Under the pieces are notes generated by a model. That model saw only the letters and a program-made list of their open reading frames with translations. It had not been told where the DNA came from and searched no databases. From the NCBI GenBank assembly GCA_945861665.1, contig CAMAVS010000001.1, positions 62,001-126,000 on the forward strand: a DNA stretch of 64,000 nucleotides, read 5' to 3'. This DNA comes from Chitinophaga pinensis. GTDB taxonomy: Bacteria > Bacteroidota > Bacteroidia > UBA4408. A program made the position numbers and the translations under genes. Below, piece by piece: positions 40,425 through 50,411 of this stretch. Each line of letters opens with the position of its first letter. The stretch's first letter is position 1.

Positions 40425-41795
40425 ATGAAACGATACAACAAATACACTTTTCTACTACAAATAATTCTCTCTTCTATTCTTTTTTCCTGTGGTAATCCTG
40501 AAAAAAAAGAAGAAACAAAAAACATTACCTACTCCGAACACATTGCACCAATAATTTATCAGCATTGCACCAATTGTCACCGCCCGGGAGCAGTTGGCCC
40601 CTTTTCACTTATTTCTTACAAGGATGTGAGTAAACGTGCTAAACTGATACGCTTTGTTACCGAAACACGTTTTATGCCACCTTGGCCTGCCGACAATACG
40701 TACACACATTTTATAGATGAAAATGTATTAAGTGCAGAAGAAATTAATACCATTAAAAAATGGGTTGCAAATGGTTCACCGATTGGAGATAGCACCAAAA
40801 TTCCTGCTCCGCCTTTATTTACCGATGGTTCCTTGTTGGGAAAACCCGACTTAGTTATACAAATGCGGGAAGCAATTAAAATAAAAGGCAATAATAAAGA
40901 CTTGTTCCTAACTGTAAAAGTACCCTATGAATTCAGCAAGGACACCTTTGTAAAAGCCATAGAATATGTTCCGGGAAACGCAAAACTGGTGCATCACTTA
41001 AACGGTCATTATATAAAATATGAATTTGATAAAAAGAAAAATGTTTATGAAGGTTTAAACATAGTAAACAGTGATGAGTTTACACCTATGGAAGTATTCA
41101 AGCAATTGAGTGTTACCAACGATGATGGAACTTTTCCGGTGTTAACACCATCGGCAGTAAATTATTTACCGGGGGTAAGCTATACATTATATCCACAGGG
41201 TATTGGAGGTTTTAAATTCAATCGAAAAGGAGCTATTTTACTCAACAATATTCACTACGGACCATCACGCATTGACACAACAGATAATTCCTACTTCAAC
41301 ATTTTCTTTGGTAATAAACCCGAACGGCCAACAATGGAAATGCAGTTGGGAACACTTGGTATTTCACAAATAATTCCACCGCTATTAATACCACCCAACG
41401 AAGAAAAAACTTTTTATACTCAAACAAAAGCCTTGATGGATATGAGTATATTAACCATTAATCCGCATATGCACTTATTGGGAAAAAGCTATTTGGCATT
41501 TGCTATTAAGCCCGATGGTGATACCATTCCATTGATTAGAATCAAAAAGTGGGATTTCCGTTGGCAGTATTTTTACACCTTCACAAAGCCTGTAATTATT
41601 CCCCAAGGCTCAATTATTTATGCTTACGGAACTTTTGATAATACAAAAAACAATCCCTTTAATCCCTTCACCCCACCCCAACAAGTAAGTGACAGAAGTG
41701 GCAGCATGAAAACCACTGATGAAATGTTTCAGTTTATTATTACTTATTTGCCCTATAAAGCAGGCGATGAGAATATTGATTTAAGGAGGAAGTGA
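40425..41795 (+). CDS. lipoprotein: c-type cytochrome fused to PHM-type dicopper monooxygenase-like domains
   Basis: 456 residues from the ATG at 40425, chosen because it starts a lipoprotein signal (LSSILFSC, lipid Cys 22). A heme c site CTNCH (48-52) is followed by PHM-like domains. By comparison with peptidylglycine alpha-hydroxylating monooxygenase, the copper ligands are present: HH at 190-191, His 277 in NNIHYGP (together the CuH site), and HMH at 348-350 with Met 434 in TTDEM (the CuM site). It would be attached to the outer side of a membrane. The substrate is unknown. It converges on a cluster with a second enzyme of the same kind (43672-45300). Confidence 0.85.
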   Translation: MKRYNKYTFLLQIILSSILFSCGNPEKKEETKNITYSEHIAPIIYQHCTNCHRPGAVGPFSLISYKDVSKRAKLIRFVTETRFMPPWPADNTYTHFIDENVLSAEEINTIKKWVANGSPIGDSTKIPAPPLFTDGSLLGKPDLVIQMREAIKIKGNNKDLFLTVKVPYEFSKDTFVKAIEYVPGNAKLVHHLNGHYIKYEFDKKKNVYEGLNIVNSDEFTPMEVFKQLSVTNDDGTFPVLTPSAVNYLPGVSYTLYPQGIGGFKFNRKGAILLNNIHYGPSRIDTTDNSYFNIFFGNKPERPTMEMQLGTLGISQIIPPLLIPPNEEKTFYTQTKALMDMSILTINPHMHLLGKSYLAFAIKPDGDTIPLIRIKKWDFRWQYFYTFTKPVIIPQGSIIYAYGTFDNTKNNPFNPFTPPQQVSDRSGSMKTTDEMFQFIITYLPYKAGDENIDLRRK

Positions 41796-41811
41796 TGGTT
41801 GTTTGTTGTTA

Positions 41812-41829
41812 CCCCGATGGCTATCGGGG
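41812..41829. repeat. GC-rich palindrome, copy 1
   Basis: CCCCGATGGCTATCGGGG is an 18-bp near-perfect palindrome related to the copy at 41929-41946. It lies in the 172-bp gap between convergent genes and could act as a bidirectional structural element. Confidence 0.7.
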
Positions 41830-41928
41830 GCACAAGCCATCACATAGTTAAAACAACTTTTCAATCAACTTTGGAAAATATGAATTTGATTTTTTAACCT
41901 AGGAAAAAATTATTTTCAAATTAGCTCA

Positions 41929-41946
41929 TCCCGATAGCTATCGGGA
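41929..41946. repeat. GC-rich palindrome, copy 2
   Basis: TCCCGATAGCTATCGGGA is a perfect 18-bp palindrome. It is flanked by AAATTAGC-type sequence on both sides (ATTTTCAAATTAGCT at 41912-41926 and AAATTAGCAAATT after it). The 15-mer ATTTTCAAATTAGCT is an inverted exact copy of 30491-30505. Confidence 0.75.
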
Positions 41947-41967
41947 CAAATTAGCAAATTGATTTTA

Positions 41968-42846
41968 TCAAACCCTAAAAACCCTTGAAATATTAAAGCC
42001 TAATTTAATTCCACCGTTTAGCCAATTAGAGCTTGTATGAGGAATAAATTGATCTTCAACCAAACCAAATGAATTGGTTAACTGCATTTGAAAAACGTGA
42101 CCGCCTGTTTCAATTTCAATCCCTATTGCAGCACTGTCGTAATATTTTACATTGGTATATTTTGAAGTACGTACAGCATACTCCAATGTGATAGCCGACC
42201 TCTTGGTGTATTTTAATCTGCTAGCAAACTGAATACCAAACATATCGTTCATATCTTCAACGCTGTCAACAATATTGTAATGTACCATAATAGGTGCCAT
42301 TTGAAAAGAGAATCGTTCGGAAAACTTTCTTCCAATAATGATTTGATGAGCATAAGAAAGGCGGTTAACATCGTAACCATATTTCGGCTGAGCCTTAACT
42401 GTTGTGTAAAACATAGAAGACACAAGTGTAACACTCAAAGGCATACTGTTATTGGTAGTTTGACGCAATAGTCTGAACTTCATAAATCCATCCAGCTTTT
42501 TTTCGTAAGATGTTCTTCCAATTCCGAACATAAATCTACCTTCAAAACTATACTCCAAACCAAGTCGAATACAAGCCGGCCCGTCCAAACCAAAAGCATT
42601 GTTTGCACCGCTGTTAAAATCGCCAAAACGGTGTGAGATGCGAAAATCCAATGTACGCTTCCCCAATGTTTCGAGTGTATGAAAATTTATTAAACGCGTA
42701 CCTTTGAAAGCAGCTGTAATAAATTCCTTTTTAGGTTTTTCAAGCAATGTTTCTTCGTCCAGCATTTTCGTCATATCATCTTCCTGGGCAAATAACACGG
42801 AAGAAAAAGAATTTGAAAACAATAAAAAAATAAGTATTTTCTTCAT
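41968..42846 (-). CDS. DUF5777-family outer-membrane beta-barrel protein
   Basis: 292 residues from the ATG at 42846, which begins the signal peptide MKKILIFLLFSNSFSSVLFAQ; the frame is open 8 codons upstream. The rest is a beta-barrel pattern of alternating aromatic strands. The segment GTRLINFHTLETLGKRTLDFRISHRFGDFNSG is the recognisable DUF5777 signature, and the protein ends with GFNISRVFRV, an aromatic-rich barrel terminus. It is the last gene of the minus-strand cytochrome/copper cluster, 7 bp after the preceding stop, suggesting an outer-membrane partner of that redox system (inference). Confidence 0.85.
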   Translation of the reverse strand: MKKILIFLLFSNSFSSVLFAQEDDMTKMLDEETLLEKPKKEFITAAFKGTRLINFHTLETLGKRTLDFRISHRFGDFNSGANNAFGLDGPACIRLGLEYSFEGRFMFGIGRTSYEKKLDGFMKFRLLRQTTNNSMPLSVTLVSSMFYTTVKAQPKYGYDVNRLSYAHQIIIGRKFSERFSFQMAPIMVHYNIVDSVEDMNDMFGIQFASRLKYTKRSAITLEYAVRTSKYTNVKYYDSAAIGIEIETGGHVFQMQLTNSFGLVEDQFIPHTSSNWLNGGIKLGFNISRVFRV

Positions 42847-42853
42847 AAAAACC

Positions 42854-43249
42854 TTATTGTGCATATCCATTATCTATCCATCTTTTAATTTTTGTAATGT
42901 TGCAAGCACTTAATTTACTACCTCCTTGCGGCATAGTGATGTATCCCTGCGTTTGAGCAATAGCTCCATATAACTGCCCGGATTGACCAACAGCTTTTAC
43001 TCCTATATAGGCCGATAAATTATAACCGCTGGTATTAGTTGCACCGTGACAAGAATTATTGATACCGCAATTTGCATTTAAAATAACCGTAACATCTGAA
43101 TATAGTGTTAGATTAGTTGTATCGCAAGTGTTTGGTGAAACTGCTTTGTTATTAATGATAGGAGGAGCTGGAGAGAGCTCTTCGAAATTATCGTAATAAC
43201 ATCCCGAAAATAATCCAAGTACAAAAAATACACTTATTATCTTTTTCAT
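42854..43249 (-). CDS. small cytochrome c-like lipoprotein with C-X5-CH motif
   Basis: 131 residues from the ATG at 43249, giving a lipoprotein signal with lipid Cys 17 (LFSGC); upstream in-frame ATGs at 43255 and 43276 would extend it. The candidate heme site is C61-GINNS-C67-H68, five residues between the cysteines instead of the usual two. The later Met in YITMPQGGSKLS could be the distal heme ligand. The C-terminal IKRWIDNGY is typical of Bacteroidota cytochrome c domains. It lies between the DUF5777 gene and a similar lipoprotein gene, on one strand. Confidence 0.75.
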   Translation of the reverse strand: MKKIISVFFVLGLFSGCYYDNFEELSPAPPIINNKAVSPNTCDTTNLTLYSDVTVILNANCGINNSCHGATNTSGYNLSAYIGVKAVGQSGQLYGAIAQTQGYITMPQGGSKLSACNITKIKRWIDNGYAQ

Positions 43250-43259
43250 ATTCATACGT

Positions 43260-43634
43260 TTAATTATCCTTAGCACCTTGCATAATCCACCAATAAATGA
43301 GCTTTATTTGATTGTGAGTCAATGGACTGTTAGGTGGCTGTGGCATAAACTCTTCACCTTTACCAGTTATTGACTGATATAACTCACTGTTATCTGCATT
43401 GTAAGCGATGATATCACCTTCCTTTATTATATCATTATAAGTCAGCAACTCAAAATCAGACGTATTAACAGTTCCGTGGCAACCCGACTGAGTACAATTT
43501 GAAACTATGATGGGTTGAATATCATTTTTATAACTAATAGCGGGAGTATCAGGAATAGTCATTTCGTGTTTACAAGAAACAAAACAAAATATTCCTATAA
43601 AAACAAAAGCTATAATTGTTAAATTCCTTTTCAT
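43260..43634 (-). CDS. small cytochrome c-like lipoprotein with C-X4-CH motif
   Basis: 124 residues from the ATG at 43634 (eight codons inside the open frame), chosen for its lipoprotein signal with lipid Cys 21 (CFVSC). The heme-binding candidate is C47-TQSG-C52-H53, and the Met of EFMPQPPNSPLT is a likely distal ligand. It ends IYWWIMQGAKDN, like other class I-like cytochromes of this phylum. It is related to the next gene downstream (42854-43249). As an anchored electron carrier it could feed the copper enzyme encoded upstream; this is inference from context. Confidence 0.78.
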   Translation of the reverse strand: MKRNLTIIAFVFIGIFCFVSCKHEMTIPDTPAISYKNDIQPIIVSNCTQSGCHGTVNTSDFELLTYNDIIKEGDIIAYNADNSELYQSITGKGEEFMPQPPNSPLTHNQIKLIYWWIMQGAKDN

Positions 43635-43671
43635 TGTGTAAAGGTAAACAAGTAACATGCTTGTACTATCA

Positions 43672-45300
43672 TTAATTCGCTTTTAATAGACGCTTCACAA
43701 ATAAATCATCACCAACAGTCACCTTTAACATATAAACACCATTGCTATATTGACTGGTATTCAACTTATAATTATGACTTCCCTTCGACTGACTTTCTTC
43801 AACCACATCTACAATTTTTTCACCTAAAATATTAAACAGTTCAATTGAAACTTTTCCTTCATTTTCGAGGGAATAATTAATTTCAAACTCATGGGTAAAT
43901 GGGTTTGGGTATGCTTTAAAAAAATACTTTTTATCCATTTCGCTTAGTCCTGTAATTCCATCACCCAATGTATATTGTATGTAATACAACATCATTTCAT
44001 CATCAGTAGTTAATCCAAATGAAACAGGAACATTTCCATAATTTCTAAACGTAGCCCTTTGTATTAAACCATTCCAAGGGTTAACAACTTGAAATGGATT
44101 TTCAAATTTTTTAATGGGTGGATGCTGCCAATCATAATAACCTTGGTTAAATATATAATCTGTATCATAAAAACCTTCATAAATTTGTTGCCCGTCTGTT
44201 CCATTTGCATTACGTAGAAAAATATCAAAATCCTTACCATATTTATGAGTATGTGATGTAAGCATCCACACATTCCAATTCCTCCAATTATTATGGGCAA
44301 AGTCAACATCGCTTTGCGAAAAAGTGTGGTCCAAATTATCGTTCGGTATTGGAATAACATAATTTGCAATCAAGTCGCTGAACATAATTTCACCGGGTGT
44401 ATTTTTGGGTTGTGTGTACACATCAAAATATACATCAGCCGCCAAAACAGTGTCTGTGTTAATATTCTTGAAGTGGAAATTCAAATCCAATATGGCATTT
44501 TTTTCATACAAATAAGCAGTGCTGGCCGGTAATTGTAAATCGTAGGTTTGTTGCCAAGCATTTGTAAAAGAAACATAATTTCCAGAAGAATTAACACGTA
44601 AACCTTCAGGAAAAAGAGCTGCACCACCTGGTAAAAATTTATAGATAATAAAATGGTGCGATTCAGTTGGCATTTTTAAGTCTACCCTATTTACCTTAAC
44701 TGTATCAGGCAAATTCAATTTGTATTTTATAAAATATTCTATTTCGGATACAGGGGGCAGAAACATTCTTCCTAAATGCACTTGAAATGCTCCTGCAGGA
44801 GCCGGAGGAGGCGCGACAACATTTCCAACCTTTCCCTTTCCTCTGTAAAAGGTATTTATAACAGCGGTATCAACCACAACACCTGTTTGTGGAGCACCAA
44901 ACATAATCCATTGTCTTATCAATTCCCTTTCATTAGCAGCCATTGCAGGAAGATTTTTAGGCATAGCCGCTCCTTCATTTTGTGCCAATGTCATATCAGG
45001 ATCTAAACCTTGGTTACATTTTCTAAAAAGGAAACTACGGTGAGGGTCGCCAGGCCAAACACGTTTATATCCTGCAGTTACCGCAGCGGGATTTACAGGA
45101 GTAACGTTAACAAGTTGGGTATATATTACAGCAGCAGATAAACTTAAATCAAGATTACCAGCATTATTATTTGTATTGTGACAACCTACAGTATTGCAAT
45201 TTGCAATAAACAACGCACGTACATTGTCAAAAGTATTTTGTGCGCTAGCAGTAAAAGATGATATAGCTAACAAAACAACAGAAAGGCATTTTCTTTTCAT
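43672..45300 (-). CDS. secreted heme c / PHM-type dicopper monooxygenase-like protein with type A sorting domain
   Basis: 542 residues with signal peptide MKRKCLSVVLLAISSFTASA. An N-terminal heme c domain has C35-NTVG-C40-H41. PHM-like domains follow with the full ligand set: HH 215-216 (TESHHFIIYK) and His 276 (LNFHFKN) for CuH; HTH 350-352 (TSHTHKYG) and Met 436 (TTDDEMMLYY) for CuM. The end is a type A sorting domain (FKAYPNPFTHEFEI; YSNGVYMLKV), so it is exported by the type IX system. The substrate is unknown. It heads a four-gene minus-strand cluster with two cytochrome lipoproteins and a DUF5777 barrel. Confidence 0.87.
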   Translation of the reverse strand: MKRKCLSVVLLAISSFTASAQNTFDNVRALFIANCNTVGCHNTNNNAGNLDLSLSAAVIYTQLVNVTPVNPAAVTAGYKRVWPGDPHRSFLFRKCNQGLDPDMTLAQNEGAAMPKNLPAMAANERELIRQWIMFGAPQTGVVVDTAVINTFYRGKGKVGNVVAPPPAPAGAFQVHLGRMFLPPVSEIEYFIKYKLNLPDTVKVNRVDLKMPTESHHFIIYKFLPGGAALFPEGLRVNSSGNYVSFTNAWQQTYDLQLPASTAYLYEKNAILDLNFHFKNINTDTVLAADVYFDVYTQPKNTPGEIMFSDLIANYVIPIPNDNLDHTFSQSDVDFAHNNWRNWNVWMLTSHTHKYGKDFDIFLRNANGTDGQQIYEGFYDTDYIFNQGYYDWQHPPIKKFENPFQVVNPWNGLIQRATFRNYGNVPVSFGLTTDDEMMLYYIQYTLGDGITGLSEMDKKYFFKAYPNPFTHEFEINYSLENEGKVSIELFNILGEKIVDVVEESQSKGSHNYKLNTSQYSNGVYMLKVTVGDDLFVKRLLKAN

Positions 45301-49778: not shown

Positions 49779-50411
49779 TTATTTAGTGGCTACTATTTTC
49801 AATTTCAACAAAAACTCATCGCTAATTGCTTTATCACCTAAGCCTTCAAAAAAGTTTTTTGAACCGTATTTAATTTCATATTTTGTTCTGTCCACTTTAA
49901 CATCTGCAAAAGCAACTAATGTTCCTTTTATCACTTTTACATTTGCAGGAAAAGTAATGTTGTTTGCAATTCCTTTGATGGTAAGCTTACCTGTAACGGT
50001 TGTATTGTTCAATACATCACCTGTTAAAGGAGCAACGGAGGAGATAACAAATTTTGACTTATTATTTTTTTCAACCGAGAAAAAATCTTCCGATTTTAAA
50101 TGTCCCAATAATTTATCGGCATACTCCCCTTTCATATCAGTACAAGTCATTGAAGTCATATCAACTTCAAACCAACCACCCGTTATTGTCTCCTTCACTA
50201 AATTAAATTCTCCGGATGCGAAATTAATGTTCCCTGTATGTTTACCAGTTACTTTTTCACCCGTCCAATCAATGGTGCTTACTTTAGCATCAATTTTAAA
50301 AGTCGTTACTGTTCCTTTTACGAGAGTAATTGGTTTAACGATTTCTTTGCTTGTAAAAGCTGTCAATAATGCTACTGTAGCAATTGACAATGTTAAAATT
50401 TTTGTTTTCAT
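49779..50411 (-). CDS. YceI family periplasmic lipocalin-like protein
   Basis: 210 residues with an N-terminal signal peptide (KTKILTLSIATVALLTAFTS) and the YceI fold: STIDWTGEKVTGKHTGNINFASGEF, HLKSEDFFSVEKNNKSKFVISS and FEGLGDKAISDEFLLKLKIVA. YceI proteins bind isoprenoid lipids in a beta-barrel; in this phylum they often accompany MarR regulators and redox proteins. It starts 64 bp after the MarR stop. Confidence 0.93.
   Translation of the reverse strand: MKTKILTLSIATVALLTAFTSKEIVKPITLVKGTVTTFKIDAKVSTIDWTGEKVTGKHTGNINFASGEFNLVKETITGGWFEVDMTSMTCTDMKGEYADKLLGHLKSEDFFSVEKNNKSKFVISSVAPLTGDVLNNTTVTGKLTIKGIANNITFPANVKVIKGTLVAFADVKVDRTKYEIKYGSKNFFEGLGDKAISDEFLLKLKIVATK

Follow-up and report, generated by a model that had tools for sequence, protein, structure and literature searches.

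How would two PHM-like bacterial proteins that carry heme obtain their electrons, and do the genes beside them provide the route? The question is raised by positions 40,425 to 45,300 of the window, a stretch of 64,000 nucleotides from a Chitinophaga pinensis assembly (GCA_945861665.1, contig CAMAVS010000001.1, positions 62,001 to 126,000). Encoded there are a 456-aa predicted lipoprotein (P0001) and a 542-aa predicted exported protein (P0002), each combining a c-type heme motif with the six copper-ligand residues of peptidylglycine monooxygenase (PHM), together with two small cytochrome-like lipoproteins (P0003 and P0004) and a DUF5777 protein (P0005). PHM and dopamine beta-monooxygenase (DBM) are the standard textbook examples of non-coupled dicopper monooxygenases, and they have been studied almost only in animals, with ascorbate. 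The data considered here favor, with a probability of about 60%, the interpretation that P0001 and P0002 belong to two distantly related families of Bacteroidota proteins, both of them non-coupled dicopper oxygenases of the PHM type, in which an N-terminal heme c would serve as the electron inlet, an interpretation that draws in part on predicted structures.

The heme c motif of P0002, CNTVGCH, provides C35, C40 and H41, with M113 as the likely axial ligand, and is followed by the copper-ligand residues H215, H216 and H276 of a CuH-type site and H350, H352 and M436 of a CuM-type site. In 99 P0002-type sequences, drawn from a second collection of genomes, which shares some members with the 60 related genomes discussed below, each of the six copper-ligand residues is invariant, the heme Cys and His are kept in 97–98, the heme motif is retained in 97 and M113 is found in 94. 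Of the 13 His of the protein, six reach 98% conservation or more, namely the heme His and the five copper-ligand His. The spacing within the heme motif drifts among these sequences (CX2CH in 28, CX3CH in 34 and CX4CH in 35 of the 99) while both Cys and the His remain constant, as expected of a covalent heme site. At its other end, P0002 carries a type IX secretion system (T9SS) type A sorting domain (residues 464–540; PF18962, 1.4e-14; TIGR04183, 4e-13; both above the cut-offs), which bears out the sorting signal proposed earlier for this protein, and the PNP motif of the tail is present in 96/99 relatives.

The PHM-type identity of P0002 has strong support: the model is of high confidence, and its closest structural matches are without exception PHM or dopamine beta-hydroxylase (DBH). 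The AlphaFold model, obtained with a 97-sequence alignment, reached a predicted local distance difference test score (pLDDT) of 92 and a predicted template modelling score of 0.79, and the best 31 Foldseek matches in the PDB were all PHM or DBH, with E down to 4e-12. In VIA-align, residues 160–447 of the model overlie the double jelly-roll of rat PHM (6ala_C; Z 23.1, 2.8 Å, 260 residues), and the model also matches human DBH (4zel_A; Z 22.5, 2.7 Å, 264 residues), while the next unrelated rows, at Z about 11, cover the T9SS tail alone; the overlay on PHM suggested by the first-pass annotation favors, at the level of the fold, the PHM-type reading of this protein. The superposition was read as aligned ranges, and the match of the ligands is one of order and spacing, both of which agree with those of the rat PHM copper ligands, H107/H108/H172 and H242/H244/M314 (PMC6123673).

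P0001 is, from sequence comparison, a distant full-length relative of P0002, and its PHM-type character is well supported by Pfam and by profile–profile alignment. Its heme c motif, CTNCH, contributes C48, C51 and H52, with M84 as the likely axial ligand, and the copper-ligand residues are H190, H191 and H277 (CuH-type) and H348, H350 and M434 (CuM-type). C48, C51, H52 and all six copper-ligand residues are invariant in the 16 family members, as are M84 and M428, and of the 10 His of the protein again no more than six reach 98% conservation, the heme His and those of the copper sites. The ligand positions named for both proteins in the first-pass annotation, and the combination of a c-type heme motif with six PHM ligands in order, were therefore confirmed as stated, with the residues invariant across 99/99 and 16/16 sequences. 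P0001 passes the cut-off of the Pfam domain Cu2_monoox_C (PF03712; 25.9 bits, cut-off 23), which is matched by all 16 members at E <= 0.01, and hhalign of the two family profiles gives a probability of 98.2% (E 5.8e-14, 372 columns), pairing up the heme site, the CuM-type HxH and the final Met. One relative of P0001 (locus L159) matches the PHM C-domain with a score above the cut-off and, weakly, the N-domain, and it also carries a T9SS tail.

Some observations weigh against the proposed reading of the pair. P0002 itself falls below the cut-off of Cu2_monoox_C, with 15.5 bits against the required 23 and E 0.012; among its relatives the cut-off is passed by two in genome G052 and by one each in G053 and G010. 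The model of P0001 is poor (pLDDT 49), since the sequences used for modelling included a single P0001 relative. The alignment consisted mostly of P0002 relatives, picked for ligand alignment, larger sets often misaligning the HH pair. PHM and DBH still rank first for this model, DBH on top, with Z 10–12.5 versus 8.4 for the next unrelated structure, and these matches are partly circular because the relatives of P0002 had been chosen with the ligands aligned. The PHM-type reading proposed earlier stands on the high-confidence model of P0002 and on the Pfam and hhalign results for P0001. Direct searches of PDB chains, by phmmer with P0001 and P0002 and by hmmsearch with the P0001 profile, returned no PHM match, and the P0002 profile found T9SS tails and cytochromes as its sole matches, so that it took Pfam and structure comparison to reveal the PHM link. 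The heme domains of both proteins score below the cut-off of the curated Pfam cytochrome models.

If P0001 and P0002 are indeed PHM-type oxygenases, copper would be bound at two putative sites in each, and O2 would be activated at the CuM-type site (HxH and Met) and attack the substrate, while electrons would pass from periplasmic or surface cytochromes to the heme and then to the CuH-type site (HH and His), the heme replacing or supplementing ascorbate as the inlet. For the heme, which nearly every member retains, the role of electron inlet is the best explanation, and its feeding of electrons to the coppers is plausible. Outside the cytoplasm, the reaction would presumably yield a hydroxylated substrate. 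P0001, as an anchored lipoprotein, would act at a membrane, whereas P0002 would receive its heme in the periplasm before T9SS export and would act at or beyond the cell surface. The two would work independently, their adjacency in this genome reflecting chance or a recent rearrangement. The genome encodes cytochrome c assembly proteins and a heme-copper oxidase, which makes heme attachment and oxygen use plausible.

The fold and ligands are the same as those of the ascorbate-dependent PHM and DBH, and both proteins might instead be reduced by ascorbate or another diffusible small molecule, the heme being used for docking, sensing or peroxide disposal. This is considered rather unlikely, since the persistence of the heme motif in 97/99 and 16/16 sequences, with a near-invariant axial Met, argues that the heme is needed everywhere, and the supply of extracellular ascorbate for bacteria would be unclear. 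Still less probable is the reuse of the PHM fold in a heme-copper redox protein that performs no organic hydroxylation and that may reduce O2, nitrite or peroxide, or handle copper. Such a role would accommodate the surroundings of the P0002 homologues, where no conserved substrate gene or pathway was found in the loci examined, and a redoxin with a CPxC/CPxS motif, neighbor of P0001 relatives in 8/15 loci, might suit metal or redox handling; nevertheless, the six ligands of both copper sites are strictly kept, among them the CuM Met, on which PHM catalysis depends.

The proposal that the five genes form one cluster was addressed through the neighborhoods of P0002 relatives, in 13 relatives' genomes and then in 78 loci of up to about 20 kb each. 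All five open reading frames (ORFs) are present in the window, but they are arranged as two convergent transcription units, with P0001 on the plus strand facing four minus-strand genes, and the neighborhood search that the first-pass annotation had set as the refuting one for linkage of the five genes found neither DUF5777 nor a separate small cytochrome lipoprotein in any of the 78 loci, so that a conserved five-gene cluster is rejected. Of 60 related genomes, 38 contain a relative of P0001 and about 13 a full-length relative of P0002. P0001-type and P0002-type genes are found together in about 25/295 genomes of the class and, according to the listed contig positions, are neighbors in this genome only; a P0001 relative lies within 10 kb of a P0002 relative in 1/78 loci, L159. 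A single system, in which the cytochromes and the DUF5777 barrel would wire P0002 across the outer membrane and P0001 would be the periplasmic counterpart, is very improbable. In its favor, the genes of P0002, P0003, P0004 and DUF5777 run in one direction with hardly any gaps between them here, and a T9SS-tailed heme-motif protein lies beside the cytochromes in 3/40 DUF5777 loci; against it, besides the 78 negative loci, DUF5777 is found in 54/60 genomes versus about 13/60 for P0002, P0001 is unlinked in relatives, and a single heme motif per small cytochrome is too few for an Mtr-like wire. The corresponding enzyme, a surface-displayed, heme-wired and ascorbate-free PHM-type monooxygenase fed here through the DUF5777 barrel by single-heme lipoproteins, is judged highly improbable as well, and an electron link via the barrel has, apart from adjacency in this one genome, little support.

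DUF5777, the cytochrome lipoproteins and YceI are a separate, common module of the Bacteroidota. The DUF5777 assignment of P0005 proved sound (PF19089, 1.4e-88, 296.7 bits, cut-off 23.1), and the domain occurs in relatives' genomes with or without a P0002 homologue. A heme lipoprotein resembling P0003 or P0004 lies within four genes of DUF5777 in 26/40 loci, and in many of these loci (L170, L181 and others) a YceI-sized protein is encoded between the cytochrome lipoproteins and DUF5777, the two tested being YceI. The same cytochrome-cytochrome-DUF5777 arrangement as in this genome is found in G002, which comes from the same family, and none of seven same-family genomes contains a P0002 relative, so that P0002 seems to have come to adjoin a pre-existing module. 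The two small cytochrome lipoproteins described earlier are present as cytochrome-like genes, although one of them has a non-standard motif. P0003 matches PSCyt1 weakly (0.0018, below the cut-off), and its homologues adjoin DUF5777 in relatives. The C-X5-CH of P0004 lies outside the usual CX2-4CH, its relatives beside DUF5777 having C-X2-CH or C-X4-CH, and P0004, to judge from this motif, may have lost heme or may bind it unusually.

The fold and the copper sites are of a known kind; what varies is the fused heme, combined with export by T9SS or with a lipid anchor. As in rat PHM (1PHM, 6ALA), a predicted double jelly-roll spans residues 160–447 of P0002, and the six ligands follow one another in identical order at similar spacing; P0001 and P0002 differ from it in being bacterial, in their N-terminal heme c domain and T9SS tail or lipobox, and in an identity of about 15%. 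Human DBH (4ZEL), close in fold to P0002 and the top match of the weak P0001 model, has other additional domains, whereas the extra domain here carries a c-type heme motif. Lytic polysaccharide monooxygenases (LPMOs) with cytochrome partners, such as cellobiose dehydrogenase, are secreted copper oxygenases fed by a heme domain or partner, but they have an unrelated fold with one copper instead of two and act on polysaccharides. Mtr-type porin-cytochrome conduits likewise have the genes of a barrel and of cytochromes side by side, close to that of an exported redox protein; they differ in that P0003 and P0004 have one heme-like motif each, so that neither is multiheme, and in that the linkage to P0002 is not conserved.

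Databases already record PHM Pfam domains in bacterial proteins, and probably also their combination with cytochrome domains; a literature search found no description of bacterial heme-fused PHM-like proteins or of DUF5777, although some may exist. That the heme delivers the electrons is a prediction, and it is the part that would surprise specialists. It suggests that these bacteria may power, by cytochromes rather than by vitamin C, enzymes of a fold known from the synthesis of animal hormones and neurotransmitters. If a broad bacterial set has both copper sites and a fused heme c, the enzymes would come with a built-in, optically readable electron donor, and they would offer a new system for the long debate on how electrons arrive at, and cross between, the two coppers, as well as adding to the oxidative chemistry at the cell surface of the Bacteroidota.

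Table 1. Features of the locus (positions in the 64,000-nucleotide window).
Feature	Position	Strand	Remarks
P0001, 456-aa predicted lipoprotein	40425..41795	+	heme c motif, PHM-like two-domain region
P0002, 542-aa T9SS-exported protein (predicted)	43672..45300	-	heme c motif, PHM fold, sorting domain
P0003, 124-aa cytochrome-like lipoprotein	43260..43634	-	single heme motif CTQSGCH
P0004, about 131-aa cytochrome-like lipoprotein	42854..43249	-	unusual C-X5-CH motif (CGINNSCH)
P0005, 300-aa DUF5777 predicted beta-barrel	41968..42870	-	PF19089
Palindrome CCCGAT(A/G)GCTATCGGG, two copies	41813-41828, 41930-41945		gap between convergent P0001 and DUF5777 genes

About 37 bases separate the stop of P0002 from the start of P0003 (Table 1), and the genes of P0004 and P0005 overlap. 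No P0001 relatives were found in viral contigs or on plasmids, and searches of plasmids for P0002 relatives gave T9SS-tail matches only. P0002 relatives often occur as tandem pairs (L079, L080, L082, L089 and L090), and some genomes have at least four copies. The redoxin associated with P0001 relatives, of thioredoxin fold, is encoded just upstream of them (L062, L063, L066, L069, L071, L072, L073 and L075) and has a conserved C-terminal GC(F/L/Y)I(E/N); no close homologue of it was found in this genome, the best match having E 4e-5 and 19% identity. At the three DUF5777 loci where a T9SS-tailed protein of one heme motif adjoins the cytochrome lipoproteins or lies close to them (L208, L221 and L227), this protein takes the place of P0002, and one of the three matches the Reeler domain; L208 belongs to a genome of the same family as the one studied here. 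A YceI gene is located at positions 49779-50411 of the window, about 7 kb from DUF5777. The palindrome between the convergent genes has nine sites genome-wide, versus 0 for the reversed control, and when tested by shuffling, 0/100 shuffles reached 4 matches.

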